DNA of 64,000 bases, taken from positions 49,000,075 to 49,064,074 of the forward strand of contig CM059564.1 in assembly GCA_030386875.1 (NCBI GenBank). The letters run 5' to 3'. Shown here piece after piece: positions 23,473 through 63,154 of this stretch (the first letter of the stretch is position 1; every line of letters begins with the position of its first letter). The DNA is from Morinoia aosen (taxonomy: Eukaryota; Arthropoda; Malacostraca; Amphipoda; Talitridae). A model generated the notes under the pieces. It saw only the letters and a list, made by a program, of their open reading frames with translations. It had not been told where the DNA came from and did no database searches. A program made the translations under genes and the position numbers.

Positions 23473-26400
23473 TTACGAAGTCCAAATTTCACAGGCATGG
23501 GTACGCAGATGGTTTAGAACCTTGTCTACTATATTTCTGGCAAGGTCAGGCGATATGTAGCGAGTATTGTAGTCAAACGAGAATGTCAGTTTCCCACGAA
23601 AAGTTTGAAAGACGAAAGCATCATTTGTTTTATAAGAGTGAAGTGTAGTCGACCGCCTAATTTGAACAGCTTTTACATTAGAATGTTCACCACCGTCAGG
23701 TTTTAAGAAAAATTTCGTTACATCTCCCATATTTGAAGTAGAGTAAACTCTATGACAAGGTATTTTATACGTGTAAAGTTCAGATGACTTTTTCACAGGA
23801 GGAAGAGTTTCCGTATCCAGTATGACGTTATAGATAATTTGCTTATCATCCACACGATGTCGGAAGGCGCTTTGGAACTTTCGAGCGCCATCCCAAAATT
23901 TTGAATGAATGTCTTTTTCCACAGGATATGAAATCCTCAACATGTCCACATGAGGACCAAATGAGTTCTCTGCTTCACACCCCCAGTATCTTCTTTCATT
24001 GACATCGTGGTAGGAAACGATATCGTAGGTGTCTTCTGACAGTCCTGCTTCTTGGAACAATTCCACTAACGCGCATTGCACCACGGAACAAAATCCAGAA
24101 TGCACACTCACATTCTCTGATTTACTTTTCTTTATAAACTCTGAAGTCGTTTCTTCATCGATCTCGGAGAATATGGTTAAAGTTTCCGGATTTCCTTCAG
24201 CGCATGGCGGAAAAACCTTCGTTAACAAAGAGCCAGAGGCAGCTGGTGCATTATAATCTTCCCTCACTTTACGAGCCACAGCAGGATTGGTCTGTAAGAT
24301 GATTTCAGCTTCTCGAATCAGCTTGTCGTGGTGCTCCGGTCCTACGTAAGAAGCAAGCTGTTCATCGTCATCGATGATGATGCCGTCAATGACGCTGTCA
24401 AGCAGATTGAGGAAGAACCCACACGTGCGCATGGATGAATGTCCGTCCGTGATCGTGTGTTGGAGACCAAACAAAACCCTGTACACGTACTTGAATGGCT
24501 CGTCTGGGTCAGCAAGGAGAAACTCCAAGGCAGGCATGACAGTAACTCTCCAGAGAGGACCAGTCTTCAGGTCGTACTGCTTACGGGTTTCTTCTGCCAG
24601 TAGAGTCTCGTACTCTTCAGGAGATGACAACCACTGTTTACAAAAGTAAAATTAGCTATGAAAGCAATGGAATTAAACTCAGACATTGACAGGATTAATC
24701 TTATCTCTTACAGTGTCGTGAATATTTTTTACACAATTTGAATTGTACGCTACAGCTGATTGTAAAACAATCAATACAATATGGAGGCAGTGTTGGCAGT
24801 GTGAAGGAAATACGGACAAATAATAAGAGATAAATATTTAATAAAACAATATACAATAATTAATAAATTAATATAGAATGAATAGATTGTTTGTATCAAC
24901 ATTTCAGCACAACACACCTGTGGTCTTTTAAAAAGAAAAAATAAATTGAAAAAAGATTAAAAATTGTAGCATTTTTCACGATTGTTGCCAAATATCAAGA
25001 AAGGATATTTTTTGGAGTTTCTGTACTTGCTATAAATACAGATACAAACTCTCGAATTCCTTCAAGTTTTTCATCGTTAGGAAAATTTACTGAACATTTT
25101 TTGTTTCTTCTGTTGAAACTCCGTGTATAAAAATGAGAATAATAATTTTATCCCTTCTGAATGTAAGATTTGGTAATTCAAGCACTTTCAATTCAGCAAC
25201 AGTGTGAGCGTAACAAGGTTGTATGATTTTTGAAAGTGAATATCTCACGTGGACGCTAAATTACTAGTGTGATATCAAATTTGCTTCAACCCTTGCACTT
25301 TTGGAGTCAAAAAATGATGCATTGCACCATTTACATTTTATTTTATGTTTGTACGAATTAGATCATTTCCCTCATGAAAAGTTAAATCTTAAAGAGAACT
25401 GGTTGTTGGATTTTATTGTATTAAATTGTACTTGGTTTACATATTTCTCTTGTTGCTACGGTATACAAGAGAATGGGCCGGTATGCTTTAGTTCCCATTT
25501 TATATTTTAATTTGAACTTAAATCGAGCCAATTATCAATTAGGATAAATTTATTTTACGAACAGTTCTTACATGAAGCTTTTGTTCAAATAAAAATAACG
25601 AGACAAAAGAGTATAAAATTTTCTTAGTGACGAGACATGATATTGTTCGTCGCAGTTTTACAAGACTCCAGGGCTATAGAGCCCATGGTAATTTCACAAC
25701 TGGACAACATCGTCGTTTGAGTGTTTACTACAAGGACACTTTAGCTGGAAATTGAGACTCAATAATAGTTAACGTGTGACTCACGCGCAGTAAGATGCTC
25801 TCTTCCTTCATCTGACACAACCACAGCGCTCCCTCATCGTCCACATCAACGCACACCCGGAGGTTCGGTAGCTTCCTGCCATAGTAACGAAAAAAATAAT
25901 AATTATTCGAGTCTTCGATTCACTAACCAAGTTGGTCATTTATTTGTCTTATTTACCTTTCATGTAAATCATATCCATGAATTGGTAAGTACTAGTTTGA
26001 AAATACTTTAGGCTCTACAACAAAGACATAAGTTTTACGGTGTGACAGTGATGATCAATCAGAGATAACCAGTATATCAAATGTATTTCTCAATACAAGA
26101 AGCCGATTAAATGATATTGATAATTTTTCAACGTATTAGATACGAAAGAGATCTTGCCTCTCGCATTGGAGTATAAATACTCAACATGATAACTGCCGCA
26201 AGACCTTCCTTCACTACATGAAATCAGTTACACGGAGATGAAGGAACGCACAAAAAGGCCATCCATAGGGACTGTTTTACTGTTGCTTTGTTTGACTGTC
26301 ACCTTTAAATAAATTATAACTAAATCCACGCTTTGCTCAATGAATCATCGTTCGTTTATTCATAAGACACACAATGAACTCTACCAATAAATTAAAGACC

Positions 26401-26695
26401 AAATTTGGAAGAGATACACTGAGCGCACTAAATGTGATGATGCTTTTATTGAAGCTTATAATTTTTCCTGTTGAAACTCTAAGAGTTTATCTTAGCATAT
26501 AAAAAAAACTTGAAATCACCTGTAGAGGTGCTGCAGAGCTGTACGGACAGCGCTCTCTTTCAAAAGTTGCTTGGCGGTGACGGTAACGCTGTACACTGAC
26601 AAATTACAGCTGTGGTCATTGCAAAATATGTAATATCGCTCCAAATCAGTAGGCTTCCGCAATATTCGAGCCTTAAAATCGCTTGAAGCTGCCAT
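23473..26695 (-). CDS. Acyltransferase A, condensation/alcohol acetyltransferase-like
   Basis: Exons 26,520-26,695; 25,785-25,875; 23,473-24,633, giving 475 aa. The ATG starts MAASSDFKARIL, matching the paralogues. The family has the CoA-dependent (BAHD/condensation/AATase) acyltransferase pattern: an N-terminal RKxTxLE block, then the catalytic HHxxxDG motif. Here that motif reads QHTITDG (residues 147-153), with the first His replaced by Gln but the second, catalytic His kept. A C-terminal FRGKLTFSFDYNTRYIS block follows. The expected reaction is transfer of an acyl group from CoA to an alcohol or amine; the substrate is unknown. No signal peptide or membrane segment is seen, so a cytosolic location is inferred. 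It is the leftmost (3'-most) gene of the six-copy array, one of its two most divergent members, and converges on the protease. Confidence 0.85.
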
Positions 26696-31192: not shown

Positions 31193-34095
31193 TCATGTTC
31201 CGTGCTTACGAAAGTGAACGAGAACTTTTTCTACGATATTTCTGGCAATACGAGAAGAGATGTATCGAGTGTTGTAATCAAATGAGAACATGAGCTTTCC
31301 ACGGAACGTCTGCACAGCAAAGACGTTGTTTGTTTTGTATGTGTGGAGGGAAGTTGAGCGACTGATCTGAAGAGCTTTAACATGGCGGTGTTCTGCTCCG
31401 CAAGGTTTTAAGAAAAGTTTCGTCACGTCTCCCATATTTGAGTTACTGTAGACTCTAAGGCATGGCATTTTGTACTCGTGCATTTCAGAGGAGTTTTTCA
31501 CTGGAGGAAGGTTTTCTGCGTCCAATAAACTCATGTAAATCATTTGTTTATTGTTTACCCGTTCCTGAAAATTTTCGTGGAACTTTCTGGCTCGTTCCCA
31601 GAAATTTGCGCTCAGATCTTTCTCACATGGAAATAATATCCTCAAAGAGTTAACGTGAGGCCCGAACAATTTATCAGTCTCACCGTCCCAGTATCTTCTC
31701 TCATTGACATCGTGGTATGAAACGATATCGTAAATATCCGCTAAAAATAATGCCTCCTGAAATACCTCTACGAATACAGCATTAAGTATGGAAGAAATTC
31801 CTGTATGAACTGTAAGCTTTTCGGATTTCATTTTCTTCACAAGAGCTGTAGTCGTGGCAACGTCTAGCTCCGAGAAAATCGTCAAGGTTTTCGAGTCCTT
31901 TTCATGCTTTGGAGGGAATGCCTTGGTTAAGAGGGAACCGCCTGCACTTTTCAACACATCATAGTCGTCTCTCATTTTACAATCAACATCAGGCTGAGTC
32001 TGTAAAACCATTTGAGCTTCCTTCACCAACTTGTCATGATATTCTGACCCAATATGTGAAGCCAACTGCTCGCTGTCATCGATGGTGACGCCTTCAATGA
32101 CGCTGTCAAGCAGACCGAGGAAGTGTCCACATATGCGCATCGAGGAATGACCGTCTGTGATTGCGTGATGCAGACCAAACAAGACGCGGTAAACGTGGCT
32201 GAATGAATCGCCAGCTTCTATGAAATTCGAAGGCTCTTGCGCAGGCATGACGGTTACTCGCCATAGGGGACCGTTCTTCACATCGTATTGCGTGTGGGTC
32301 TCCTCAGTTCTCAAGCTCTCGTAGCCTTCTGGGGACGACCGCCACTGTTCAAAATAGGAGTCAAGATTCAACTAGCATTGAAACAGATAGGGCTATTTAT
32401 GAAATAGTTTCGAGAAAATGTCTGGATTTTTAAAAAAACGGAAATACCAAAAATCATCGACAAATTGTTGATACTTTTAGAAAGGGCGAACTGTGTCTTC
32501 AAATATTAGGATTTCAGAGTTTGAACTATAAAAAATGGTCTCAAACTAGTAAAAGTTCTGCTGCGTAAAACGTCTGAGTTCAACCCTAGCTATTTTGTGA
32601 AATACTGGCCAAAAATTGAATTTCTTCAACTATTTAATAACTCAAAACCAGACAACTGTCGTACACTCTGTGTAGCGCTTGTGTTGCACCATAAAGTCCA
32701 GTTCACAGGCAATATTACTTCACTGCCATCACAGCATTTGCTAATCATGTCGTACTATTATAAATCCCATTCTATGAGCCATACTCAACAGAATAACTTG
32801 AAAAATTACAGCCGAGCTCCATATTTTATCTAACATATGATGGAAGCAGCACTTTCATTCTAAATTCAAATCAGCGATTGCAAATTTTTTTGATGCGGGA
32901 TAAATCATAGTTGCAGGTATAAAATTAGCTGAAACTGCTGGTTTTGGGAAGATGTATTTGTAACCAAGAAATTTTTTGAAGATGTTGAGTGGAAGTGAGT
33001 TGCCCGCACTCCCAACTCTGTTCCCTGCATTGTTATCAGTAGTAATTTGAGAAACACAATTTCATTTCATTTTTTAACAATCACGCGAGTTTCTTTAGTG
33101 TCGGACATCCCTAAATCCATAGAACAAGAAATAGCGTACACTTTCATCCCATAGAGTAATTTCTGTTTTAATTTTTGAAGTCACACATACTCATTGTGCA
33201 ATAGGACCTATACGGATCTCAACACTATATCATCCACTCGCTAATAAGCTGAAAGTATACCTGCAGTAAGATCTTCTCTTCCTTCATCCAACACAGCCAC
33301 AGCTCTTCATACTCGTCCTCTTCTATGCAAACTCTGAGGTTAGGAATCTTCCTGAAACAACAAGAAATAAGGAAAATATTCATGTGTCAAGCAACAAAAC
33401 ACCATTGTTCAAAAAATTATTAATTTTCGTGCATCACAGAAGTAGAAGTCGTTGGACATTTTGAAACAAAAGTGGGAAGAAGAATTCTGAATACTTAAGT
33501 AAGTATGCAGTTAACGAGATGGCCAAATTGGTGTTGGAGTTTTCATCAAGCGTGAGCGTTCCCAAATCGAGGCACATTTGTGACTGAGAATGACTTTCAC
33601 AGCAAAACTAGTCTAAGTAAGCAAATAAATCTAAGTAAGTGTTAAAATAATAAGATAAAGACTGAGTCAAAATTATCAAGATCAAAAAGTCACACATAAG
33701 GAAATAAATACTTAGCGTTTCAATCCCATTCAATTTCTTGAGTCATACTACCAACTGCATCTGGTTGGTTCAGTAGCAAGAGATATTTATAGCCAAGAAA
33801 TTTTAAACAATAATAAGTGAGTCATACTACCAACTCCAGCTGGTGGTGGTGGTGGGTGGTTTAGTAGGCGGAGGTATTTATAACCAAAAAATTTTAAACA
33901 ATAACCAGTCAGGGCTAACCTGTAGAGATGTTGCAGGGCTGCGAAGACTCCTTCCTGCTGCAACGAGCCCTTCGTTGCGACCGTGACGCTGTACACAGAA
34001 AGATTGAAGTTGTTGTCGTGGGAAAACTGAAAATATTTCTCCCTTGAAGAGAGTTTCCTTATCACGCGATCCTTGAAGTCTATTGGACTTGTCAT
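31193..34095 (-). CDS. Acyltransferase B, condensation/alcohol acetyltransferase-like
   Basis: Exons 33,920-34,095; 33,261-33,351; 31,193-32,344, giving 472 aa. Exon lengths and phases match the other copies (exon 1 ends after two bases of an Arg codon, exon 2 ends in phase 0 before a Trp). The active-site motif is HHAITDG at about residues 148-154. The C-terminal block is FRGKLMFSFDYNTRYIS. Exon 2 is acidic (ICIEEDEYEELWLC...KEEKILLQ). It has no frame damage and no signal peptide. With A it forms the more diverged part of the array; the core motif is complete, so it is likely an active enzyme of unknown substrate. Confidence 0.87.
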
Positions 34096-36829: not shown

Positions 36830-36830
36830 C

Positions 36831-37021: not shown

Positions 37022-38939
37022 ACATCGCAATAGTTTGATATGTCATAAAAAAAATCACAAAATGCCCTCAACCGAAGAATTCCTCAGTAAAAGGTAAAGA
37101 AATTCAACGATTGCTCGAGGATCGGTCTCACATTTCTTGCTGTCTAGAATCTATGATGTGCACGCAGCATATTATTTTAATTATAATTTACCCACAATTA
37201 CCGTAAAGACAAATAACAATGAAAAGAAGGCCTATTTCAAAGGCAGGGATGACCTCGAAGGTGACACTGGAACCGTTCCTCCAAATCTTACGAAACATTC
37301 GCTCGCAAGTGGAAGAGTACTTTATCCACGATGCTCTTTGCAAGGTCAGTCGATGTGTACCGCGTGTTGTAGTCAAAAGAGAACACTAATTTTCCTCGAA
37401 ACGTTTGGAGAAAGAAAATATTGTTCACCTTGTGCGAATGAAAGCATGAAGACCTTCTGATCTGCAAAGCTTTGACGTGGAAGTTTTCGCTCCCGTCGGG
37501 TCTGAGGAAAAGATTGGTCACGTTTCCCATGTTTGAGGTGTTGTACACTGTTAAGCAAAGACTTTTATTCTTGTATATATCAGCCGATTTCTTCACTGGT
37601 GGAAACTTCTCGGCATCCAGTTCATTCATGTAGAACATGTGCTTGCCATTCACATTTTCATGGAAGGTTTTATGAAACTGACGAGCACTGTCCCAGAGAT
37701 TCGACTGGATAACTTTCTCCACTGGGAACAGAATCCTCACAGATCCGATTTGGGGTCCGAACAGCTTTTCGCCCTCGCAGTCCCAGTATCTTCTTTCGTT
37801 CAGATCGTGATAAGATACGATGTCGTATGTTTCTCTCTCCATCCTTGCCTCTCGGAACATTTCTACAAACGCTGAATGAAGTATGGAACAAAATCCAGAG
37901 TGAACGCTCACTTTTTCCGCTTTCATTTTTTTCAAGAGACCAGACGTAGTTGCCTCATCCAATTCAGTAAAAAGCGTCAGAATTTCGGGGCTTTGGTCTC
38001 CATTATTCGGAGGGTACGCTTTCGTTAACAACGATCCAGCGTCAGTCATCGCATTATAACCGTTTCTCATTTTACGATCCACGTCAGGTTTCGTGCGTAG
38101 AATGGTCTGGACTTCCTCAACCAGCTTGTCGTGGTGCTCTGACCCGACGTGGGTGGCCAACTGCTCGCTGTCATCGATGGTGCTGCCATCAATGACGCTG
38201 TCCAACAGACTGAGGAAGAACCCGCACATGCGTATGAAGGAATGACCGTCCGTGATGGAGTGATGCAAACCAAACAAGATGCGGTACACGTGGCTGAAGG
38301 CATCGTCCGCGTCAAATTGCGATGGCTCCAACGCAGGCATCACCGTAACGCGCCAGAGGGGGCCAGTCTTCACGTCGTACAACTTGCGGGTCTCTTCTAT
38401 GTATACAGAGTCAAACACTTCAGGAGACGTCAGCCACTGTGGTAGACTGGGCAAATTAGTTTGTGTTCCGTTCAAAGTGTCGTTTTCTAATAAAAGATTT
38501 ATCATAGAGAATTATACTTTGGCATGTAGGGAAACAAATGGAGCTATAAAGAATCTATCATTCTCTTTGTTACTACAAAGCCATTTAATTAAGAAAATAT
38601 TCAGAGCCTAGATTTCACACACACATGTCATAATTTTTGTTAATCTGAACCAGGGATTCCCAACCTTTCTCTGATCTTGTACCTCTTCAATATTTCAACA
38701 GATTGGCATGTATCCCTTATATCTTATGATATGAAGGGTAGTATATATATAATGTATTCAGTGAAATATGTAAACAACTAAATGGAATTAAAACATTTAT
38801 ACACAGTTATCGTTTTTTAACATGAAATGAGCCCTTCACCTATGCAAATATACTCGTTTGGGTACCCTCCCACACGTTGGGAACCCCTGATGTTAATGAT
38901 CATTGAGAAATGAAACTGTTCACGGTATTCGATGTGACA

Positions 38940-39480: not shown

Positions 39481-40753
39481 AGAAACAAGAAAAAATTAGT
39501 CAACTGTAAATTAAACTATATCAAAATAGTGAGAGAAACGTACGTATGAAAATAGTCAAAATCGATTTAGTATAAGTACTACACCAGTGGCAAAAGGAAT
39601 ACTGATTGCATGTGTGTTAAACAGGTTTATTTTCAAATTGAACATCGGTTATAAAATGCAGAGATTCATATGAACTCAGATAGAGCAAATAACTTTAATA
39701 TCCTCTAATCAAACTGGAAGGTCACTCTTCTTTGTATGAGAGCGGGCTGAGGAATGTGAAGGTACAGAAAGGAACTGGTTGGTCCTTAAACTTCTGCCGG
39801 TATGCTCAGCAACACGAACACCGAGGGCTCAAGCAGTTGAGCCCACGTACTATACGCTTATATGCTTCAATGTTTCTAAAACCCGTTTTCATTGTAGCCT
39901 ATGCCAAGACGATAATGAATCGGGGGGTTAAGCATAACACTGGGGATGAATTTTGAACGACTCCGAGTATACAGTTACTGAACCAGCATAAAAAACTGTC
40001 AATAGGAATAAATTATCAACAAGTATATCACAATTGTGAAGAATTTCAAAACCTGCAACAAAATTTTTTCTTCTTTCATTCTGCACATCCACCACTCGCC
40101 CTCCTCATCCTCCTCTAAGCATACCCTGAAGTTTGGTAATTTTCTGTGTAAAACGGGTTATGAAAGTTACTGTTGAAACGAATGTATGAAAAACTGAGAA
40201 GAGAAATTTTAAAAATATTAAAACTGAAGCTTTCGAAGCTAGATGCGTTTTAGTGGAAAGTATTATGCAACGAAAAAAATGTTCATTTGCATTGTAAAAC
40301 ACAAAAATTATAGTAAGTAAGCCCAAAATGTAAAAAGTTTGCAGGAAGCCAAGCAAAGAAAAGAAAAAACATTCGATAATCAGATAAAACTTTTGTATTT
40401 GAGAAAAGACTACGCACTGTTTTTTTTCAAAACGACAGAGCGCTAATTTCTGTAAATATTGCCATTTTAGGACGGAACAAAATTTATTGAATAAAGTATA
40501 CGATAGATAATTTCGGAATACATGCGACCGAAAATACTTCCTATAATCAAGTTAAGAGAATTCATAGAGGACAACTAAACTGACCTGTAGATATGCTGCA
40601 AGGCTGTGCGGACGGTGCCCTGCTGCAAGGGCCACCCACCGTCAGGCAGTACACAGAGAAATTAGCCTTGTTATCGTGCAAAAATTGGAAGAACTTTTCC
40701 AACGGAGTTAGATTCCGCAGGACGCGGTCTTTGAAGTCACTTGAATCGCTCAT

Positions 40754-43416: not shown

Positions 43417-46400
43417 CTACTTGGCATTCGCTCGCAAATGAACGAGTACTTTATCCACGATACTCTTTGCAAGATCAGTCGATATGTAACGAGTGTTGTA
43501 GTCAAAAGAAAATACTAATTTTCCGCGGAATGTTTGCAGGCAGAAAACATTATTCGTCATGTACGAATGAACAGAAGTGGACCTTCTGATCTGCAGAGCT
43601 TTGACGTGGGAGTGTTCGCTCCCGTCGGGTCTGAGGAAAAGATTGGTCACGTTTCCCATGTTTGAGGTGTTGTACACTGTTAAGCAAGGAATTTTATTCT
43701 TGTACATATCAGCCGAGGTTTTCACTGGTGGAAACTTCTCGGCATCCAGTACATCCATGTAGAACATGTGCTTGCCATTCACATTTTCGTGGAAGGCTTT
43801 GAAGAACCGACGAGCGTTTTCCCAGAGATTTGATTGGATATCTTTCTCCACTGGGAACAGCATACTTAAAAATCCAATATGAGGCCCGAACGAATTTTCT
43901 CCATCACAGCTCCAGTATCTCCTTTCGTTAACGTCGTGATAAGAAACGATGTCGTATGCTTCATTCTTCATTCCCGCCTCTTGGAACATTTCTACAAACG
44001 CTGAGTGAACTATGGAAAAAAATCCTGAGTGAACGCTTACGTTTTCTGACTTCATTTTTTTCACCAGTCTAGATGTAGTTGCCTCATCCAATTCAGTGTA
44101 AAACGACAGAATTTCAGGGTCTTCGTCTCCATTCTTTGGAGGGTACGCTTTCGTTAACAACGATCCAGCGTCAGCAATCGCATTGTAATCGTTTCTCATT
44201 TTACGATCCACGTCAGGTTTCGTGCGTAGAATGGTCTGGACTTCCTCAACCAGCTTGTCGTGGTGCTCTGGTCCGACGTGGGTAGCCAACTGCTCGCTGT
44301 TATCGATGGTGATGCCTTCAATGACGCTGTCCAACAGACTGAGGAAGAACCCGCACATGCGCATGGAGGAATGACCGTCCGTGATGGAGTGATGCAGACC
44401 AAACAAGATGCGGTACACGTGGCTGAAGGCATCGTCCGCGTCAAATTGCGATGGCTCCAACGCAGGCATCACCGTAACGCGCCAGAGGGGGCCGGTCTTC
44501 ACGTCGTACAACTTGCGGGTCTCTTCTATGTATACTGAGTCAAACCCTTCAGAAGATGTCAGCCACTGCAGGAAATAATGCAGATTGAAACATTCTTGCC
44601 CATTTAGTTCTTCTTAAAAGTAAAGCTCACTTAAGAACATAGTACATGGACACATAGAAAAATCAAGCTAAGTTTGAAAAATACTGCATTTCCGTAGATA
44701 CAGCAAAGCAGAACGATTTCAAAACCGTGAGAAATATGGATTTCCATCACGTATCACATTATAGATAAATTTGGGACAAATAATGAGACCAATATGAATA
44801 TATAAGGATTTAAGTCAATAATGAAACATATGCTGCAATATTTGGCGACAGTTTTGGAATTAGTGTATGATGATAAAATTATTTTCAAATTCATGCAGGC
44901 AGGAAACCATTCACTAAAGTCACAATTATTGTGAATGTTATTCTCGCGCTAGGAAACGTTTATGATTATGTGGGACAGAATAGGGATCGCTTTTTTATTG
45001 TTAGGCGGAAATGAAAGGTAGAAAATAATTGCAGAAAAATTAAGGATAATGAAACTTGATTTGTTTTAGATAAAAAAAAAGTGCACAAAATCAAAGAAAA
45101 AATCAATCATCCGATTATATTTTGACAAATTATTGATACCGTCCTTTGTACAATATAAATATATGTTCAAAATAGTTATAAAATAGTCTGAATTTTCTTC
45201 CAAATAATTGCAATAAGATTTTATAATTCGTCAGCGTTTTGTCTGTGTTGATCTTCGTTATTGTAATAAGTTCCCTTCCCCGCCCTCCCAAACTTGAAAA
45301 TATGCAATAGTGTGTGATTATAAAATTTGGGAAAATGAGCAGTTAATGAATGACTTTCGATGACTTCATTGGAGCAAAATTAAACTTGTAGAAATTTGAA
45401 AGAGCCTCTGAGACCAGAAGTGGCACGGTGAATCATTTAAAAAATCTGAGAGGTCTTTACTGATGCAGTACTTGGAAACAATACTTTGTAACTGCAGTTA
45501 CTTTTCTTCTCATCCGCCCGGTACACTTCTTCTTTGAATGGCCTCCGTATGATATATTAGCTCATTAAGAAAATAGTGAAAAATCATGGAGGATTTAGAT
45601 GAACTACAAAGGAAATAGATTTAAGCTGTGTTCACCGTGGCCGAGTGGTCAAGAACGCGCCTTTCTTAAAAGATGTCGGCAGTTCGAATGCCGGCGCTGC
45701 TCGGTGATTTCTTCCCGTTGAGTAAAGGGATAACTCAGGTACAATTCTCCACTTTAACCATGTGTCGGACATGGGTACCGGCTTGACCGGGGGTAACGGT
45801 CAATGCGTCCTGGTGTTAGTTATGAGGCCCTTGAAAAACCAATGTACAAGATGGTCTGTATCAGACTTGATTGATTGGAATAACGCATGCTTCAAGGAGA
45901 ACCATGCAACTTTAGACAAGTAACACATGGATCGCATATATGAAATTTTCACGAACCTGCAATGAGATTTTCTCTTCCCTCATCCTGCACATCCACCACT
46001 CGCCCTCTTCATCCTCCTCAAAGCACACCCTGAAGTTGGGTAATTTTCTGTGCAAAATAGAAAATGTTAATAAAAGTTGGTACATGAGAAACAAATTAAT
46101 AATAAAAGAGAAAGAAAAGGTAAAGCTAAAAAGCATTCGAATTTAATCTTTCGATGTTAAGCATGTTTTACACACGAATAAAAATAAATTAATGAAAAAA
46201 CATGAAATATTTAACGCCCATTAATGTGGCACGAATAGGAAATAAAATGACAAAAAGTATGCAACCGTAGAACATAAAGTATAACCCATGCATTAAACGA
46301 TAAACATAAATATTAAGCATTTGAAAGATTAGACTAGATTATTCGTTAGCTTAAGCCTCCCTATCCTCAACAAATGAGATCCAAAGAGAGGAAGGAAGAA

Positions 46401-47492
46401 GGCACCATTTAGTATGGAGTTAAGGGAACGTGGAAACTATGCAGAGAGGGCATAGAAACAGTAAGATGAGAAAGAAGTTCATGAAACAAGATCAAAGTTG
46501 AAGAAGAAAGTAGTAGGTGCTGAAAAACAGGACAGCAGTGAATCGAAAAAAGATGGTCCGTAGCAAAACAAAAACCTATTTTATTACAACAAAAAGGAAG
46601 CCTACCTAACCTTTAGCTCGGGCCCTTACATAGTCCCCCTGGGAGCGCTAATTCCCAAAGATACAACAGTAGCATTTGAGAGAAGTTTCTTATTAATTAT
46701 ACCCAGGACCTCTAAAAAACAAACCAAGTCTATAGAACGAAAGCATACAAATGAAATTCAAACTAATTTAAATTGAAAAATGCATTTATGAAAATAGAAA
46801 TTTAATACACAAAGTACCTTTTGTTATCAAGTAATAACAATTCATAAATTTAATAATCACGTTCAACTAATTTGAACCACACATTACAGGTAATAATTTT
46901 TGTTTTCTAACTCCACATGCATCAGACGAATTATTGACTTTAGAGCATTCCTTTTATTACCCAACATCACAGATTTCTACGGGGTTTGAACATTCAATCA
47001 TGGTTGGTCTTTCATTTTTAGCAGAAAAAGTTCGCTTTTCATTTTTCATAGAAAGAAATAAAGGCGGACTTGTGCTATCAGAAATCGACGGAAATTTTGC
47101 TCCAAGAACATTAAGCAATTCGAGTTACCAAAGAAAAAGTGAGGGAGGGTTGAGAACTCGTATGTGTTCGTGATAAATTCATCTACAGTGGTTTTCCATT
47201 TTGACTAAAAACGTTTGAGGATTTCAAATTCACCTCATTCGATCTGAATTTAAAAAAATTCGATTCAATTAAATACAAAGTACAGTTCGAGTGTCATATA
47301 AAGCCAGTAAACTGACCTGTAGAGATGCTGCAAGGCTGTGTGGACGGTGCCCTGCTGCAAGGGGGCTCTGGTGGCCACCGTCAGGCAGTACACCGAGAGG
47401 TTGAATTTCCAGTCGTGCGAGAACTGGAAGAACTTTTCCAGAGGAGTGAGCTTCCGCAGAATGCGGTCTTTGAAGTCACTTGAACAGCTCAT
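43417..47492 (-). CDS. Acyltransferase D, condensation/alcohol acetyltransferase-like
   Basis: Exons 47,317-47,492; 45,957-46,047; 43,417-44,565, giving 471 aa. The start MSCSSDFKDRIL aligns with MSVSSDFKDRVL in E and F; an upstream in-frame ATG at 47,501 would add three residues. The motif is HHSITDG at residues 147-153, with the C-terminal FRGKLVFSFDYNTRYIS block near residues 440-456. It is intact in all exons. Intron 2 (about 1.4 kb) carries a tRNA-derived SINE, and intron 1 carries a dispersed-repeat copy. Closest to C, E and F. Likely cytosolic acyltransferase; acyl donor CoA inferred from the superfamily, acceptor unknown. Confidence 0.88.
45633..45895 (+). mobile_element. tRNA-derived SINE in intron 2 of acyltransferase D
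   Basis: The head folds loosely like a Leu/Ser-type tRNA. It has an A box TGGCCGAGTGG at 45,638-45,648, a B box GTTCGAATGCC at 45,682-45,692 inside a CGGCA/TGCCG stem, and CACCG/CGGTG end pairing. A non-tRNA body follows to about 45,895. The anticodon arm is mispaired, so it is not a working tRNA. Orientation is opposite to the host gene. Confidence 0.75.
46325..46675 (+). repeat. Dispersed ~350-bp repeat family, copy in intron 1 of D
   Basis: Same block order as the copy at 38,940: TTAAGCCTCCCTATCC, CACCATTTAGTATGGAG, GAAACTATGCAGAGAGG, TTTAGCTCGGGCCCTTAC and GGGAGCGCTAATTCCC. It is truncated in the terminal palindrome. Confidence 0.8.
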
Positions 47493-49470: not shown

Positions 49471-50399
49471 ATCAGATGTCAGATATATAGGCTGAAAATG
49501 GGCTAAGATTCTCAAGATCTTGGTAACGCCCGAAAGTCCTCAACCGCCGAATTGGGACCGCAGGCTAGCTTTGTTACCAAAACCCATGCTATTTTTCCAT
49601 TTCACTACACAAAAATTCTGAGCTTTTCGGTCTCGCAGAATCTTACAACTTTTCATGAGAATTATAATTCTTACCTCGTTAAAAGCTGTGTTTGGCTCAA
49701 CGCAAAACTTCAAGTGCAAGTGAATGGAAAAGAAATACTTGGCATTGGTATAGATTTCAGTTTAGACGAAAGACAGAATATCAAGATTCAATTCACCTCA
49801 AGCACGTATCTGCTCGCTTCTTCGATATTATGGTAGTATCATCGTCCCCTTTTGTCTCTCAGACTTTTATCAGAGAACGGCCAGAACATAGAATGCATTT
49901 CTACAATTAAATTGGGAATTTTGAAAATTCTCACGATTTTTGTTTAAAAATGACGACCTATAGTGTAAAAACTTATGAACTTTGGGATCACTTGTTTATC
50001 GCTCTTTGTTTCTCTGAACATTTTAACGAGTAATCGTTTTAAAATAATTATTTAACCTTTTGACTGCCTATTGGGGCATAAGAGTATCGCTGGGCAAATA
50101 GCTCATTTACGTATCGGTGTGAATGAACAGCATTTCAATTATTTCAACATCTTTTTAGAATAGATTTAAAACTGCCAGGTAAAATATCATAAAGCCATTA
50201 CACTTCACGCTTCTTAGGAGAGATACAACTTTTTTCGAGCAGCAAAGTCCTTTTTTGAACACTGCTTTAACAACCTTTTTAACATGAGACCGCTGGACGC
50301 ACATGAGCGTTAAATACACAAGCTGATGAATGTCAGTACTTATTGGTTTATTCGCAGCTTGATTTATGCTTATGGTGAAATGAGTATCCCAAATTATTA

Positions 50400-50755
50400 T
50401 TATTTTACAAGAAAGTTTTAGCCTCCCTTAACCACGACAAAGATGTTCCAAGAGAAGAAAGAGGAAGGCACCATTTAGTATGGAGTTGAGGGAACGCGGA
50501 ATCTATGCACAAGGTGCACAGAATCAGTAAGCTAGGAAAGAAGTTCATGAAACAAGAAAAAAGTTGAAGAAGAAAGTAGTAGGTGCTGAAAAACAGGACA
50601 GCAGTGAACCGAAAAAAGATGGTCCGTAACCAAACAAAAACCTATTTTATTACAACAAAAAGGAAGCCTACCTAACCTTTAGCTCGGGCCCTCACATGGT
50701 TCCCCTGGGAGCGCTAATTCCCATAGATACAATAGTCGTATCCCCCTGAGGGGAT
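50400..50755 (+). repeat. Dispersed ~350-bp repeat family, copy in the D-E gap
   Basis: Nearly complete: TTTTAGCCTCCCTTAACC, GAGGAAGGCACCATTTAG, GGAATCTATGCACAAGG, TTTAGCTCGGGCCCTCAC, GGGAGCGCTAATTCCC, and the terminal palindrome with CCCCCTGAGGGG. Confidence 0.85.
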
Positions 50756-51709: not shown

Positions 51710-54700
51710 CTACTGTGCACTCGCTCTAAAGTGGACAAGTACTTTATCCACGATAACCTTTGCAAGATCAGTTGAAACGTACCGAGTGTTGTAGTCAAAA
51801 GAGAAACTTAATTTTCCGCGGAACGTTTGCAGAAAGAAAACGGCGTTGTACATGTCGGATTGTAAAGAAGTGGACCTTCTGATCTGCAGTGCCTTGACGT
51901 GGGAGTGTTCGCTCCCGTCAGGCCTGAGGAGAAAACTGGTTGCGTTCCCTAGGTTTGAAGTGCCGTAAACTGTTGAGCAAGGAATTTCTTTCTTGTACAT
52001 ATCCGCTGATTTTTGAACAGGGGGGAACTTCTCTGCATCTAAAATATCTATGAAGAACATGTGCTTGCCATCGATTTTTTCATAGAAAGCTTTGTAGAAC
52101 TGACGAGCGCTTTCCCAGAGGCTCGACTTGATATCTTTCTTCACAGGGAACAAAATCCTCATCGTTACAACTTGAGGTCCGAACAACTTATCGCCCTCGC
52201 AGTCCCAGTATCTCCTTTCGTTCACGTCGTGATAAGATACGATGTCGTATGTTTCTCTCTCCATCCCCGCCTCTTGGAAGAGTTCTACAAACGCAGAGTG
52301 AACTATGGAACAAAATCCAATGTGAACGCTCACTTTTTCCGCTTTCATTTTCTTCATGAGCTCAGACGAAGTTGCCTCATCCAATTCAGTAAAAAGTGTC
52401 AGAATTTCGGGGTCTTGGTCGCCATTTTTTGGAGGGTACGCTTTCGTTAACAGGGATCCAGCGTCAGTAATCGCACTGTAATCGTTCCTCATCTTGCGCT
52501 CTACGTCAGGCTTCGTGCGTAGAATGGTCTGGACTTCCTCAACCAGCTTGTCGTGGTGCTCTGGTCCGGCGAGGGTAGCCAACTGCTCGCTGTCATCGAT
52601 GGTGATGCCTTCAATGACGCTGTCCAACAGACTGAGGAAGAACCCGCACATGCGTATGGAGGAATGACCGTCCGTCATGGAGTGATGCAGACCAAACAAG
52701 ATGCGGTACACGTGGCTGAAGGCGCTGTCCGCCTCAAATTGCGATGGCTCCAACGCAGGCATCACCGTAACGCGCCAGAGGGGGCCGGTCTTCACGTCGT
52801 ACAACTTGCGGGTCTCTTCTATGTATACAGAGTCAAACCCCTCAGGAGATGTCAGCCACTGCAGTAGATAGTGCAAATTAGATTATTTTGTTTTTTAAAT
52901 AAAGTTTTTAATTAAAAAATTAACGTGAGAACATTCTTCTTAAATGTACAGAGATAAAAGTTGAAAAAATCGAAAAATTATTTGCTTAAAAACAGTGTAG
53001 TACCTTCAAACACAAGGCAGTTAATCCCGAAATTTGCATATATGATTAATAATTATTGGTCAGTATACAGAATCAGGCCAGAAGAATAGGGTTGAAAACA
53101 TAGAAATCGGTACTACTATTTCTGCGGCGGGGGGTTGCAAATTGTCTCAATGAGTTTTGACAGTTTGGAGGAGATTTCATTGTTGTAGAGACAGAGTAAA
53201 AGCCCGCTATGAGGGAGATCAGAAATACTTTGTTCCTCGCAAGCCTCTCTTTGTTACATTAATTTTACCACAGTCCCAGAACAATACCGGATCACAAACC
53301 AGGAATTTCTTGATACAAGGAATTAATGAGGGGACAAAACCAAACATAAAAATTATGTTAGGTAATAAGTTTGTTTCAGCCTCCCTAAACACTGCAAATA
53401 GGTTCCAAAGAGAGGAAGAAAGAGGCATGATGATAGAAGAACGAGGAATCTATGCTTACGGTACGTTCCCACGCATGATCCCCTGCGCAAAGATTAGATT
53501 AAATTATGTTAGTTTAATGCCTCCCTAACCGCTACAAAAAAAAAGCGTATCGAAGAGCGGAAAGAGAAAAGCACCATTTAGTATGGAGATAAGGGAATGC
53601 GGAATCTTTGCAGAAGGGCAAAGAAACAGCCAGTTAGGAAATAAGTTTATGTAAAGAGATCAAAGTTGAAGAAGAAAGGAGAATGTGTAGAAAATCAGGG
53701 CCACAGGAAACCAAACCAGATGATCGCTAACAAAGCAAAAAAAACTATTCTATTTCAACAAAAGAAAGGCTTGTCTAACCTTTGGCTCGGGACCTCATGT
53801 TATCCATTTAGTTAACTTTTTTCTTGTTTGCCTAAATGATATGAAGGCGAATTGAAAACATTGAGACCTTTCGAACGATTTGAAAGATCTGCAAGGAACT
53901 AGCTCCTAGGTGCCCATACAGTCCAAGTGAATGTCCAAGAAAAATTTCACGTTCGGGAGGATTCTGACAAACCTGCAGCAAGATTTTCTCTTCCTTCATC
54001 CTGCACATCCACCACTCGCCCTCCTCATCCTCCTCTAAGCACACTCTGAAGTTGGGTAATTTTCTGTGCAAAGTAGGTCATGTAAGTTACAGTTGATTGA
54101 GGGTATTTTTTATAAAGCGTTTGTATCTTGGGAATGAAGCAGATAAATTTCAAAATATGAAGACCAAATATTTCGAGGCTAGGTGCACTTTTAACGTAGA
54201 ATATTGGTGAAAAAATAAAAAAGAATACCGTATTATTCAACTCTGATCAATACAATGTAGGTATATAGTTATTAAACTCATTGAGATGAGAAGTAAAAAC
54301 TCATCCAGCATAAAGTGAAAAAACACATAGAAACATGATCATGAAAATTTTACATATGATAAAAAGCTACGCCCTGTATTTTGGTGAAAATTGATTAACA
54401 TACGGAAACACTGTTTAAAAAACCAGGGTCGAAATTCATTGAATAACAGTATACGATCAAAAAATTTCCTAATACGTACGATGGAAAATATTCGGTTATA
54501 CTGCAATAAGGCTTCGTAAATTTCAGACCAATGAGACCCACTCATAATCAGAATAAAATAATTTTCCTACTTCACCTCAAGCGAATGACTGGTACTACAG
54601 AACCTTCCATTGCCCGGTATTACGGTTCACAAGATCAGTTGGAACACATATATTCACGAGCCTTCCATTTTCAGCTCACAAAATAGAATGTTCACTGTTC

Positions 54701-55354
54701 ATTATGTATACTTGTGGCGTAGACTAAATACCAATGAAAATTCTTCACTGCGAACATTTAAATAATCCAATTTGTTCAAGATAGTGAAGAAAGTTTGAGA
54801 AGGGGCATATTCTCCTTGATACTCTACAGAATTAGCATTCTGGGATCTTTTCCAGATAAGTCCCGCCACTAATGCATCACATAAGTTCAGCCACTTGTAA
54901 CTTTTGAAGTAATGCACCTATCGACTTGAAATTACTCCCAAACGAAAGAATGCTTCAATCTTTCGTTTGAGAGTAATTTGAAGTCGATAGGTGCATTACT
55001 TCGAAAGTTACAAATGGCTGAACTTATGTGTTGCATTAGTGGCGGGGCTTATCTGGATAAGATCCACATTCTGAATTGAGGAATTTCTGCGGTGTTCAAA
55101 TTCATATTATTTCACCTGAATTAATAATCCTAACTCATTTCTATAAAACACGACAATATAAGCGTCGCTGCATCAGACCTGTAGAGATGCTGCAAGGCGG
55201 TGTGGACGGTCCCCTGCTGCAAGGGGGCTCTGGTGGCCACCGTGAGGCAGTACACCGAGAGGTTGAATTTCCAGTCGTGCGAGAACTGGAGAAACTTCTC
55301 CATAGGAGTGAGCTTACGCAGAACGCGGTCTTTGAAGTCGCTTGAAACGCTCAT
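51710..55354 (-). CDS. Acyltransferase E, condensation/alcohol acetyltransferase-like
   Basis: Exons 55,179-55,354; 53,973-54,063; 51,710-52,858, giving 471 aa. Starts MSVSSDFKDRVLRKLTPMEK. The active-site motif is HHSMTDG at residues 147-153, and the C-terminal block is FRGKLSFSFDYNTRYVS. All junctions are GT-AG, and the acceptor before exon 3 is TGCAG|TGG as in the other close copies. Very similar to F throughout, with conserved introns, so the two arose by a recent segmental duplication. Intron 1 carries a 250-bp near-perfect palindrome that would fold in the pre-mRNA. Substrate unknown. Confidence 0.9.
53361..53805 (+). repeat. Dispersed ~350-bp repeat, copy with a nested second fragment
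   Basis: The outer copy (TTTCAGCCTCCCTAAAC to GGCTCGGGACCTCATG) matches the single copy at 61,487-61,805. A second 5' fragment of the same family (about 53,495-53,620) sits inside it, bounded by GCAAAG on both sides. The fragment is absent from the F unit, so it arose after the E/F duplication or was lost from F. Confidence 0.75.
54828..55078. repeat. Near-perfect 250-bp palindrome in intron 1 of E
   Basis: Arms of about 120 bp (54,828-54,951 and 54,960-55,078) meet with only a few unpaired bases around GCTTCAA. It contains the GCACCTATCGACTT...AAATTACTC motif of the foldback element at 27,525-29,905. It would form a long hairpin in the intron RNA. Confidence 0.9.
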
Positions 55355-56195: not shown

Positions 56196-56313
56196 AGATC
56201 ACTCGTTTTTTCCCTTTTGAGTGAAGCGAATGACTCTCTAAAATTTGAGATTGTTAGTTTTTAATAAAATAAATCATAGAACCAGATTTCACAGAAATGA
56301 GAAAGAACTTCAC

Positions 56314-58057: not shown

Positions 58058-58256
58058 ATTCGGACCAAAATATGAAAAGATTAGGATTCACACGCATATC
58101 ATCACACTTCTGTTTTGTCCTCTACTTAGAATAAGTACCACACAGTTCTAAAATCATTCCATCTAACTTGAAAACTACGCATAACAAAATTAATTAAAAA
58201 ACAATGTAATGGCACTGATTGCTTTGCGATCCACACATGTACCCTTTCTCAAGACC

Positions 58257-61200
58257 CTACTGTGCATTCGCTTTTAAGTGAACGAGGACTTTATCCACGA
58301 TACTCTTTGCAAGATCAGTTGAAACGTACCGAGTGTTGTAGTCAAACGAGAAACCTAATTTTCCGCGGAACGTTTGCAGATAGAAAACAGTATTGTACAT
58401 GTCGAAAGGAAAAGAAGTGGACCTTCTGATCTGCAGTGCCTTGATGTGGGAGTGTTCGCTCCCGTCAGGCCTGAGGAGAAAACTGGTTGCGTCCCCTATA
58501 TTTGAAATGCTATAAACTGTTAAGCAAGGAATTTCAGTCTTGTACATATCAGCCGATTTTTGAACAGGGGGAAACTTCTCTGCATCTAATATATCTATGT
58601 AAAACATGTGCTTGCAGTTGAGTTTTTCATAGAAAGCTTTGTAGAACTGACGAGCGCTATCCCAGAGGCTCGACTTGATATTTTTCTTCGCAGGGAACAA
58701 AATCCTCATCGCTACAACTTGAGGTCCGAACGACTTATCGCCCTCGCAGTCCCAGTATCTCCTTTCGTTCACGTCGTGATAAGAAACGATGTCGTATGTT
58801 TCTCTCTCCATCCCCGCCTCTTGGAAGAGTTCTACAAACGCAGAGTGAACTATGGAACAAAATCCAGTGTGAACGCTCACTTTTTCCGCTTTCATTTTCT
58901 TCAACAGCTCAGACGAAGTTGCCTCATCCAATTCAGTAAAAAGCGTCAGAATTTCGGGGTCTTGGTCTCCATTTTTCGGAGGGTACGCTTTCGTTAACAA
59001 CGATCCAGCGTCAGTCATCGCATTGTAATCGTTTCTCATCTTGCGCTCTACGTCAGGTTTCGTGCGTAGAATGGTCTGGGCTTCCTCAACCAGCTTGTCG
59101 TGGTGCTCTGGTCCGACGTGGGTAGCCAACTGCTCGCTGTCATCGATGGTGCTACCTTCAATGACGCTGTCCAACAGACTGAGGAAGAACCCGCACATGC
59201 GTATGGAGGAATGACCGTCCGTCATGGAGTGATGCAGGCCAAACAAGATGCGGTACACGTGGCTGAAGGCGTCGTCCGCGTCAAATTCCGATGGCTCCAA
59301 CGCAGGCATCACCGTAACGCGCCAGAGGGGGCCGGTCTTAACGTCGTACAACTTGCGGGTCTCTTCTATGTATACAGAGTCAAACCCTTCAGGAGATGTC
59401 AGCCACTGCAGTAGATAGTGCAGATTAGATTATTTTGTTTTTAAGGTAAGTTTTTAATTAAAAACTTAACGTGTGAAAATTCTTCCTAAATGCACAGAGA
59501 TAAAATGTGAAAAAGTAGAGGAAAGCTTTTCTTAAAAACAGTGTAAGTAAATTCTCTCCAACACAAGGTAGTTAATCCTGAAATTTGCACTTATGTTCAA
59601 TTATTGGTCAGTATACACACAACATAAAAATCGGTACTGTTGTTTCTGCGGCGGTGGGTTCCAAATTGTCTCAATAACTTTTGACAGTTTGGAAGAGGTT
59701 TTATTGTAGTAGAGACTGAGAAAAAGCCCGTCTTGAGGGACAGCAGAAATGCTTTTTTCCTCGCAAGCCTCTCTTTGTTCCATGTAATTCATCACGGTCC
59801 CAGGACAATACAAAATCACAAACCAGGAATTTCTTGAGACAAGGAAATAATGAGGGTGTTACGATCCTCCTTTTTTAGGATCGAATGAAGTGATTAAATT
59901 TTTTTTTTTTGGGTAATGCGTTCAAAATAACTACATGCATGCGGAAGTAATGACAAATCGAGTTTACACTCGATACATTTATATTTAGGGCGGTGTTCAC
60001 CCCCAGATATCCTCGGACTGGCCTCCAAGGAATATCGTCAGTCGCGGGAGAAGATCTTCGATGATGAAGCAGGATAAGGATATCCCGATATCAACTTCTC
60101 GTCATCGCTTGTTCAAGTTCTTCGTTTCAGCGTGCGTCAGAAGCACAAATCTCGTCGGCTTGTCTGAATCTTCCCTTGCAATATCGGTGGCTACGGGGGA
60201 TATTGTTATGCTTCTCCGCATAACTGTATAAGAAACATCGCTAAGAATCTGGATAATCGTTATCTGGCCAATAACATATTCATAAATGATTCTAAAAGAC
60301 CAAATAATAAGTCTGAGGATCAACAAGGGAGCACTTCAAATCGCCTATACCTTCAAATCGTTTATACCTTCGAGGAGGATCTTCGCTTGGACTTCGCATG
60401 GAATAACGACAGCTCACGGAAGATGCCAGGAACTTCAATGATTTCTCTTATGTAATGTTTACTTCTTATTAATAATATTTGCGGGGATTGTTAGTATAAA
60501 TATGTTAACGCGAGTAAGTAACAGCGTATTTAAATTGTTTTAGGTTCTTCTTCCATTCATATATCAATCTGGTTAAATCATAATTGCTAGTCGGCATCTA
60601 GGGAGAAGCGGCGATAACGCCACCGCGAGGGTTGCCTTCGAGGACTGGGTCAGTTAGGTGGGAGGCTCCGAAAGCCATTGACAGAGGTGTGAGCTGCGAC
60701 GAAACCAATTGCGTCGGTCCTTGCGGACTGGGCGCGTGCTTTTATCTAAACATATTAATGACTTCAACATAACCACCTCATAGCGAACGTAATTGTGCCT
60801 TGCTTTCAAATTCTATTAAGTGATCCGCAAACTTTGCTTTTAATGTCAGCTAACTATCGCCATAACGGTCGATTCGGGCGATACAAAATGGCAGCTCGTC
60901 ACCTAGAGTCCGGGCCACTCTACGAAAGCAGTCGAACCACAACTAAGTATCAATCCTCATTCACCATGTACTAACGCCTCTCCCTTCGAACTTTCTGAGT
61001 ATATAGGGTAGGATGCGAATAGCCATTATATGTGTAATCCTTAACCTTTGATTTCCTTTATTGTCAATAGTGAATATTGAATCTGATGTCTATTTAATTC
61101 CCTCCGTAAATTAGGATGAGAGATGATAACGATGATGTTGAGAAAATGATTGATTCACGAAGCCAAGAAATACGGCTATGCACTTAAAATAATATGCCTA

Positions 61201-63154
61201 CCGCTATTCGACCAAACGCTTACCGTTGTCTTGAAACGAACATGTCTTATAAATATAAATATTTTTTGCCCAAGTGGCTGGTGGCAGCGCCAAAAGCTAC
61301 CGTGATTTATAAAGACTAGAAAATAGAATAATTGTGACAAATAATGTATTTGTAGGTGTCACGAAACTAAAATCACGAAAACATCGGCAGTAATTAAAAG
61401 GAATGAAAAAACGATGACGAGAAAACGGAAAAATTATGCGATAGCCACCAGGACGTCATAACAGGGGATAAAACCAGACATATAAATAAGGTTAGGTAAT
61501 GAGTTAGTTTCAGCTTCCCTAACCACTACAAAGAAGTTCCAAAAAGAGGAAGAAAGAGGCATGAAGATAGAGGAACGGGGAATCTATGCATAAGGTACGT
61601 TCCCACGCATTATCCCCAGCTCAAAGAAACGGCAAGTTAGGAACTATGTTTACGTGAAAAGATCAAAGTTGAAGAAGAAAGGAGTATGTGCTAAAAAAGA
61701 GTACCACAGGGAGCCAAATCAGATGGTCGGTAACGAAGCAAAAAAAACATTCTGTTTCAACATAAGGAAGGCCTGTGTAACCTTCGGCTGTGGACCTCAT
61801 GTTATCCATCCAGTAAACTTTTTTCTTGTTTGCCTGAATGAAATACATCCAGGCAAACTGTATAAGTGAATTGAAAACATTGAGATATTTTGAACGATCT
61901 GAAAGATCTACAAGGAACTAACTTATAGGAGCCCATATATAAGAGTATCTGTCCATGTGAATTTCCAACAAGTATTTTACTTTCGGGAGGATTCTGACAA
62001 ACCTGCAATGAGATTTTTTCTTCTTTCATCCTGCACATCCACCACTCGCCCTCCTCATCCTCCTCTAAGCACACTCTGAAGTTGGGTAATTTCCTGCGCA
62101 AAACAGGTCATGTAAGTTGCAGTTGATTCAGGGTATTTTTATGGAGCGTTTGTATTTTAAGAATGAAGATAAATTTTAAAAATATGAAGACTTAATCTTT
62201 CGAGGTTAGGTGCATTTTTAAAGTAGAATATTGATGAAGAAATTGTAAAAAGAATTGCGTATTAGTCAACTCTGATGAATACGATGTAGGTATGTAGTTA
62301 TTAAACCCATCGAGATGGGAACAAAAAACTCATACAGCACAAAGTGAAAAAAACGCATCGAAACATGATCATGAAAATTTTGCATACGGCAAAAGGCTAC
62401 GCCCTGTATTTTCGTGAGAATTTACTAACATACAGAAACACTGATGTTTAAAAATCGAAGACCGAAATTCACTGAACAAGGGTATACGATAAAAAAATTT
62501 ACTAATACGAACGACAGGAAATACTCGGTTATACAGCAACAAGGCTTCGTAAATTTCAGATCAATTAGACCCACTCAAGAAAGTGAAGAAGGTTCGAAAA
62601 GTGACGTATTCTCTTTCATACCTTGCAGAATTAAGAATTTTGAGATATATTCCAGATAAGCCCCACCACTAATGCAACACATAAGTTCAGCCACTTGTAA
62701 CTTTCGAAATAATGCACCTATCGACTTCAAATTACTCTCAAACAAAAGAATGCTTCAATCTTTCGTTTGAGAGTAATTTTAAGTCGATAGGTGCATTATT
62801 TCGAAAGTAACAAATGGCTGAACTTATGTGTTGCATTAATGGCGTGGCTTCTCTAGAAAAGATCCGCATTCTGAATTGAGGAATTTCTGAGGTATTCAAA
62901 TTCATATTATTTCACCTGAATTAAAAATCCTAACTCATTTCCATAAGACATGACAAAGTAAGCGTCGCTGCATCAGACCTGTAGAGATGCTGCAAGGCTG
63001 TGTGGACGGTCCCCTGCTGCAAGGGGGCTCTGGTGGCCACCGTCAGGCAGTACACCGAGAGGTTGAATTTCCAGTCGTGCGAGAACTGGAAGAACTTTTC
63101 CAGAGGAGTGAGCTTCCGCAGAACGCGGTCTTTGAAGTCGCTTGAAACGCTCAT
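58257..63154 (-). CDS. Acyltransferase F, condensation/alcohol acetyltransferase-like
   Basis: Exons 62,979-63,154; 62,003-62,093; 58,257-59,405, giving 471 aa. Starts MSVSSDFKDRVLRKLTPLEK; motif HHSMTDG at residues 147-153; C-terminal block FRGKLGFSFDYNTRYVS. Exon structure is identical to E. Intron 2 is enlarged to about 2.6 kb by the LTR-like insertion (59,857-61,463), and intron 1 holds the palindrome. Exon reading frames are clean, so the insertion has not visibly disabled it. It is the rightmost copy in the window and the array may continue beyond 64,000. Confidence 0.9.
59857..61463. mobile_element. 1.6-kb LTR-like insertion (possible solo LTR) in intron 2 of F
   Basis: Defined exactly by comparison with E, where the flanks AATGAGGG and GGGATAAAACC-type sequence are continuous (about 53,331). 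The insertion begins TGTTACGATCC and ends GACGTCATAACA, giving the TGTTA/TAACA inverted ends typical of LTRs, with a 3-4 bp target duplication (GGG or AGGG). No gag or pol frame is present. A GGTGGCAGCGCC block near 61,281 resembles a primer-binding site, but it lies inside, so the solo-LTR reading is not certain; a short-TIR DNA element is the alternative. Confidence 0.6.
61487..61805 (+). repeat. Dispersed ~350-bp repeat family, copy in intron 2 of F
   Basis: Orthologous to the outer copy at 53,361 in the E unit but without the nested fragment. It runs from TTTCAGCTTCCCTAACC to GGCTGTGGACCTCATG. Confidence 0.75.
62640..62880. repeat. Near-perfect palindrome in intron 1 of F
   Basis: Counterpart of the palindrome at 54,828 in E: two arms of about 115 bp around GCTTCAATC, with the GCACCTATCGACTT motif mirrored. 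Retained in both units since the duplication. Confidence 0.9.

Follow-up and report, generated by a model that had tools for sequence, protein, structure and literature searches.

A window of 64,000 nucleotides (the whole stretch of DNA analysed, C9:49000075-49064074) from the genome of the amphipod Morinoia aosen carries, on its minus strand, six genes in a row built on one common three-exon plan. Quite probably, these genes (copies A to F) belong to an old arthropod family and form, together with a seventh copy outside the window, a tandem array of putative single-domain, cytosolic-looking HxxxD acyltransferases, with PapA, condensation and alcohol-acetyltransferase enzymes as their nearest named relatives. 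The array is an ordinary tandem duplication of a metabolic enzyme and no new kind of system, though its family goes almost unrecognised by curated models.

Gene Plan of the Array

The six large exons were located as stop-to-stop frames; for the copies other than F, blastn and tblastn with the copy F exons found exons 1, 2 and 3. With the splice acceptor placed between cag and TGG, the exons measure 176, 91 and 1,149-1,161 nt (stop included) in five of the six window copies. Copy C, with an exon 1 of 169 nt, departs from the exon lengths that the original prediction had given to the whole array. The intron phases are identical across copies (2, then 0), all 12 introns of the six window copies have GT-AG borders, and the intact reading frames encode 475 (A), 472 (B) and 471 residues (D, E and F). 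A repeat search of the window recovers the six copies in register. The prediction of six consecutive same-strand genes stands, positions included; the genome, however, holds seven. Copy G follows copy F about 3.5 kb beyond the window end (C9:49067535-49070822) and is intact, with exons of 176, 91 and 1,149 nt, GT-AG introns and a 471-residue frame. An acceptor-like cag, spotted by eye about 45-60 nt upstream of the ATG, is common to copies C to G and suggests a candidate intron in the 5' untranslated region.

Evidence for HxxxD Acyltransferase Homology

The full-length window proteins (A, B, D, E and F) are single-domain and 471-475 residues long. Their highest 19-residue mean hydropathy is only 1.56 and they therefore show no clear membrane helix; no signal peptide is evident in these five proteins. 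The HHxxxDG motif, claimed for all copies, is exact in five of the six window copies, copy A reading QHTITDG, and aligns with HHSISDG of bacterial proteins. Over the 13 loci of the family in this genome (seven array copies and six dispersed paralogues), the H and D of the motif are always kept and HxxxDG is found in 12, the paralogue of contig C14 having HxxxDA. A C-terminal [ST]N[MLI] motif occurs in 13 of 13.

Further evidence comes from profile comparison, in which the animal and bacterial alignments were kept apart to avoid circularity. The array-only profile matches the bacteria-only profile in hhalign at 96.5% (E 7.9e-10, score 77.6), as compared with scores of at most 27.1 and values of at most 3.3% in 20 column shuffles, and a score of 18.0 with the reversed profile. 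The 13-row animal profile reaches 98.9% (E 2.7e-17) against the same bacterial profile, the shuffles having been run only for the 96.5% comparison. Because the bacterial rows were chosen by their similarity to the array, these values show homology to them and not closest kinship. Profile comparison supports the membership of the array proteins in the HxxxD acyltransferase superfamily.

The bacterial relatives are distant, with about 19-27% identity to the array proteins depending on the alignment. A condensation-domain protein of a Nostoc plasmid matches copy D over 88% of its length (22% identity, E 2e-4), and copy B more weakly (E 0.1 over 58%). A search of prokaryote genomes with the profile enlarged by the Nostoc protein returned 79 candidate stretches, among which three deltaproteobacterial/Syntrophorhabdus relatives were confirmed, whereas the array-only profile gave 50 candidate stretches and no relative. 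None of 46 candidates from viral contigs was a relative, and the profile search of phages had zero matches.

Among Pfam models, the strongest match is PF00668 (Condensation), found in all five full-length array members (best E 5.1e-6). In a six-frame search of the genome, its sole match is the paralogue of contig C3, which exceeds the 30.6-bit cut-off (32.0 bits, or 32.2 with neighbouring sequence). PF07247 is matched weakly by three of the five proteins (best E 0.0006), the best score shown being 20.4 bits for copy B exon 3 vs. a cut-off of 22. Exon-3 pieces alone give matches to PF07247 and PF16911, both below threshold. PF02458, the third model named along with the original prediction beside PF00668 and PF07247, has no match listed for the five full-length members, and the two that do match stay below their cut-offs in the array.

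In the PDB, the 13-row animal profile finds the PapA structure 8s6l (1.2e-4) through three weak collinear stretches, none of them significant singly. A mixed animal-bacterial profile finds 8s6l at 8.7e-35, many condensation domains of non-ribosomal peptide synthetases (NRPSs), and PapA5 (1q9j) at 0.0053. Together, these matches point to PapA-like, condensation-type and alcohol-acetyltransferase enzymes as the probable nearest named families.

A Family of Thirteen Loci

The assembly comprises 1,990,973,590 bases in 29 contigs. A genome search with the copy D protein yields at least 27 exon matches, corresponding to three exons of each of the seven array copies and six dispersed loci, and searching back with the C3 protein yields at least 13 matches, which fall on those 13 loci; both counts are lower bounds. 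The six paralogues (Table 1) share 18-27% identity with copy F. The frames of C3 and C14 start at an acceptor-like site in the place and phase of array exon 2 (before KLP/RIP), and continue without intron 2. Those of C2a, C2b, C6 and C11 start at acceptor-like sites, in phase 0, near the place of array intron 2: the distance from the start to GPxW, tryptophan included, is 26, 26, 26 and 27 residues, respectively, and 28 in the array (counted by eye on printed translations). These sites are candidates only. Candidate intron positions common to the array and its paralogues argue for an old nuclear family and against a contaminant.

A tree of 16 rows (13 animal rows and three of the four bacterial proteins, midpoint-rooted) places the seven array copies in one group (98/100) and splits the animal from the bacterial rows (100/99); its long branches are those of C14, Nostoc and C11. 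The animal origin assumed at the outset is confirmed, as these are intron-bearing genes with paralogues in a nuclear genome that has at least 115 matches to the Chitin_bind_4 domain (PF00379), a cuticle family typical of arthropods, absent from all 14 control genomes. The insect odorant-binding (PF01395) and odorant-receptor (PF02949) models have no match in the genome, but none in the 14 controls either, which makes this only a weak hint of an arthropod other than an insect.

Table 1. Exons of the array copies in the window (window positions) and dispersed paralogues (contig and position).
Feature	Position	Strand	Remarks
Copy A exon 3	23473..24633	-	1,161 nt with stop, QHTITDG
Copy A exon 2	25785..25875	-	91 nt
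Copy A exon 1	26520..26695	-	176 nt, ATG
Copy B exon 3	31193..32344	-	1,152 nt, HHAITDG
Copy B exon 2	33261..33351	-	
Copy B exon 1	33920..34095	-	
Copy C exon 3	37288..38436	-	1,149 nt, open, HHSITDG
Copy C exon 2	40053..40143	-	
Copy C exon 1	40585..40753	-	169 nt, frameshifted
Copy D exon 3	43417..44565	-	HHSITDG
Copy D exon 2	45957..46047	-	
Copy D exon 1	47317..47492	-	putative gene-conversion tract
Copy E exon 3	51710..52858	-	HHSMTDG
Copy E exon 2	53973..54063	-	
Copy E exon 1	55179..55354	-	
Copy F exon 3	58257..59405	-	HHSMTDG
Copy F exon 2	62003..62093	-	
Copy F exon 1	62979..63154	-	
Paralogues C2a and C2b	C2:3910083 and C2:3918670		small tandem pair, starts 8.6 kb apart
Paralogue C3	C3:46660479		
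Paralogue C6	C6:90070752		
Paralogue C11	C11:28156322		
Paralogue C14	C14:37735532		degenerate LHAITDA motif

Divergence, Probable Conversion and Probable Loss of Copies

The exon-3 proteins are 61-64% identical in the nine pairs involving A or B and 80-90% in the six pairs within C-F, so that A and B are diverged and C to F close, as predicted. All 15 pairs have exon-3 ratios of nonsynonymous to synonymous substitution (dN/dS, Nei-Gojobori) of 0.11-0.39, which shows that this exon is under purifying selection. The ratio is 0.11-0.16 in the pairs with A or B, at a synonymous divergence (dS) of 1.5-2.5 that is near saturation, and 0.26-0.39 within C-F, where dS is 0.12-0.37. The spread of dS values indicates duplicates of different ages, old in the case of A and B and young in that of E and F, and therefore no assembly artefact.

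Copies E and F are homologous across most of their introns and flanks, in blocks at 51170-53332/57719-59856 (90%), 53619-54544/61622-62577 (83%) and 54776-56195/62575-64000 (87%). In copy D, the similarity to E and F is confined to the exons and 3-63 nt on each side, a repeated element excepted. Its introns and 600-nt flanks align to theirs with 43-50% identity and are tentatively taken to be unrelated to them. The introns of copy C keep some similarity to those of E and F (52-61%). The array is a neat example of exon-limited similarity, the introns and flanks of its copies having drifted apart.

Within the coding sequence, exon 1 of copy D tells a different story from exon 3. Copies D and F differ at 5 of 176 sites in exon 1 and at 150 of 1,149 in exon 3 (Fisher p 1.3e-5), and the same contrast is found between D and G (p 0.0021) and between D and E (p 0.0057). 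At informative sites where C and F disagree, D agrees with F in 25 of 27 cases in exon 1, but exon 3 has it agreeing with C in 83 of 145 (p 1e-6). Where C and E disagree, D agrees with E at 24 of 32 exon-1 sites, and 95 of 156 exon-3 sites put it with C (p 3e-4). This mosaic test takes C as the reference and would be biased if C evolves fast, but the direct comparison of D and F, which does without C, gives the same answer. Exon 1 is not slower overall, B differing from D, E and F by 0.30-0.31 in exon 1 and 0.31-0.34 in exon 3. The near-identity of D and F in exon 1, set against their divergence in exon 3, makes gene conversion likely and points to a putative conversion or crossing-over of D with the E-F-G lineage, confined to the exon 1 area. 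In exon 3, the closeness of D to C is one of nucleotide identity (89%, against 86-87%) and lacks a strong branch, since the exon-3 protein tree places D outside C, E, F and G (88/86).

In copy C, exon 1 falls 7 nt short of the usual 176 nt, and the joined exons therefore run into stops from exon 2 onward. As assembled, copy C is no working three-exon gene. A long-dead pseudogene is not supported, as exon 3 is open, its dN/dS resembles that of the other close copies, and few of its otherwise invariant positions have changed: 7 of 171 in C, as compared with 6 of 170 in D, 3 of 167 in G, 2 of 166 in F and 0 of 164 in E, the counts of E, F and G being lowered by their mutual closeness. With no clear decay in exon 3, copy C is probably either a recent pseudogene or the product of an assembly error. 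Local duplication, this probable loss and the exon conversion agree with the ongoing birth and death that had been suggested, an ordinary process in a little-described family.

Two kinds of repeats accompany the genes. A transposon-like element recurs in introns and spacers of the array (38932-39305, 46319-46670, 50399-50753, 53489-53797 and 61503-61797), and a foldback inverted repeat of ~220 nt, 88-91% self-complementary, lies in intron 1 of E (54843-55065) and F (62644-62864).

Predicted Function

The array proteins likely perform a CoA-dependent transfer of a fatty or acetyl group to a small acceptor, and their most likely use would be the esterification of a lipophilic small molecule, i.e., a xenobiotic, a hormone or a pigment. 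A His-based mechanism is proposed because His and Asp are kept at all 13 loci. The second His of HHxxxDG would act as the general base toward the small acceptor, whose hydroxyl or amine would then attack the acyl-CoA thioester, and the Asp would hold the active site together. The same role as general base, for attack of the acceptor hydroxyl on acyl-CoA, is attributed to the motif His across the superfamily. The copies may differ in acceptor or acyl preference, and the array may grow and shrink through unequal crossing-over. Tandem expansion together with purifying selection fits enzymes acting on varied small molecules, as in detoxification, hormone or pigment esters being equally possible. 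Pheromone chemistry, likewise suggested at the outset, would be a further candidate role.

Stand-alone PapA- and alcohol-acetyltransferase-like enzymes are mostly known from bacteria, fungi and plants. Fungi and plants are also where PMC5484351 locates the alcohol acetyltransferases, and PMC7296158 assigns an activity that forms ecdysteroid esters to another enzyme, a sterol O-acyltransferase. A tentative, rather doubtful extension is that arthropods possess a separate, uncatalogued family of soluble HHxxxDG enzymes, recruited to esterify lipophilic hormones, pigments or xenobiotics, with nearly all of its 13 loci in this genome under the curated cut-offs. If true, this family could supply a missing gene for the ester conjugates of arthropods, one beyond the membrane-bound acyltransferases on which suspicion usually falls. 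The intron-bearing family, with its 13 loci and duplicating array, provides defined candidates for such conjugation. The arthropod family is undescribed in the titles and abstract openings among the literature matches listed, and a description may exist elsewhere.

Alternative Readings

Several results weigh against assigning the array to these acyltransferases. No array copy reaches any curated Pfam or NCBIfam cut-off, and copy F scores only 22.4 bits with PF00668. Of two single-sequence PDB searches, one returned no match and the other an irrelevant one at E 0.66, and the five-sequence array-only profile had no match among PDB sequences. The strong 8s6l match of the mixed profile is driven in part by its bacterial rows. 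Furthermore, conservation of the motif does not prove that the textbook mechanism applies, since mutation of the motif His in yeast Atf1p lowers thioesterase activity only moderately (PMC5484351).

The family may go back to an old horizontal transfer from bacteria. Loss of enzyme activity, the motif being kept for folding in a binding protein or regulator, is unlikely: copy A has Q instead of the first H and C14 reads LHAITDA, but all 13 loci retain the D and the second H, and exon 3 is under purifying selection. Somewhat less likely still is an NRPS-like enzyme that condenses in trans, depends on a carrier protein and forms an amide instead of an ester. The Condensation domain is the best Pfam match, and animal NRPSs with condensation domains are published (PMC10531068). 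However, the proteins have only 471-475 residues, adenylation and carrier domains are not among the matches listed, and a PapA-type enzyme tops the PDB matches of the mixed profile and is the one whose match spans almost the entire profile. Bacterial contamination or a very recent transfer from bacteria, to which the bacterial nature of the nearest relatives outside the genome (Nostoc plasmid and Syntrophorhabdus-type, from prokaryote, phage, plasmid and viral collections) might point, is very improbable, and contamination is rejected: far from being intronless, the genes have three exons and GT-AG introns within an 86-Mb contig, their identity to bacterial proteins is low, and paralogue exons in the same genome start where the array has intron 1 (C3, C14) or intron 2 (C2 twice, C6, C11).

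Other Features of the Window

The plus strand probably carries exons of a trypsin-like serine protease at 9988-22032; the exon at 21799-22032 matches PF00089 with 35.1 bits, and a clip domain was guessed by eye at 9988-10227, with no Pfam match shown for it. A 39-nt satellite (18542-19567, 26 copies) has one frame open over 323 residues. TTAGG is an arthropod-type telomere motif, and a degenerate TTAGG-like tandem repeat is found at 1557-1716, in the contig interior. Three separate reverse-transcriptase-like frames, presumably of the non-LTR (long terminal repeat) type, occupy 2601-4078 on the minus strand, with PF00078 on 3566-4078.

Comparison with Named Enzyme Families

Enzymes of the PapA type (8s6l; PapA5, 1q9j and NF006787; PapA_C, PF16911) resemble the array proteins in size, in their single domain and in the position of HHxxxDG, around residue 147. 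Once bacterial relatives are included, 8s6l is matched over 6-446 of 451 profile positions. NF006787 is weakly matched by all five full-length array proteins (best 5.9e-5), copy F scoring only 17.2 bits vs. a cut-off of 396, and PapA_C stays below threshold in the array copies, the genes of which have eukaryotic introns. The Condensation family (NRPS C domains and stand-alone relatives) provides the top Pfam match and a paralogue above the cut-off, whereas copy F falls short of it (22.4 vs. 30.6 bits) and the array lacks attached NRPS modules. Fungal alcohol acetyltransferases (PF07247) have HxxxDG in common with the array, the weak matches staying under the cut-off; in six-frame searches, PF07247 has no match in the genome and none in the 14 controls either. 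Yeast Atf1p has HXXXDG and lacks DFGWG (PMC5484351), and the array proteins likewise have HxxxDG without DFGWG.

Plant BAHD enzymes (PF02458) would share the HxxxD chemistry. With E values up to 10 admitted, no PF02458 match is listed for the five full-length members, in a search where HMMER filters drop most weak matches, and DFGWG is absent from 18 of 18 rows. BAHD membership is rejected on these two grounds, and of the condensation/BAHD-like superfamily originally proposed, the HxxxD superfamily is retained through the profiles and the BAHD part abandoned. WS/DGAT enzymes (PF03007) are of the same superfamily, the array proteins matching them at E 0.15 or worse. Separately, the genome has a pair of nearly identical PF03007 frames (C9:26612068 and C9:27786747, 1.17 Mb apart), either a recent duplication or an assembly duplication, with the motif HPCIGDG, Pro replacing the second His. 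PMC3334986 states that its scale insect "and animals" did not show the HHXXXDG of the wax synthases of P. hybrida (printed "hydrida") and A. calcoaceticus.

The array was first judged notable for an animal genome, and the family is indeed little described. Two facts make the surprise smaller than first claimed: the superfamily holds choline and carnitine acetyltransferases, both of which animals possess, and the genome itself has six paralogues. PMC5484351 counts these two acetyltransferases as members of the superfamily to which the array proteins are here compared.

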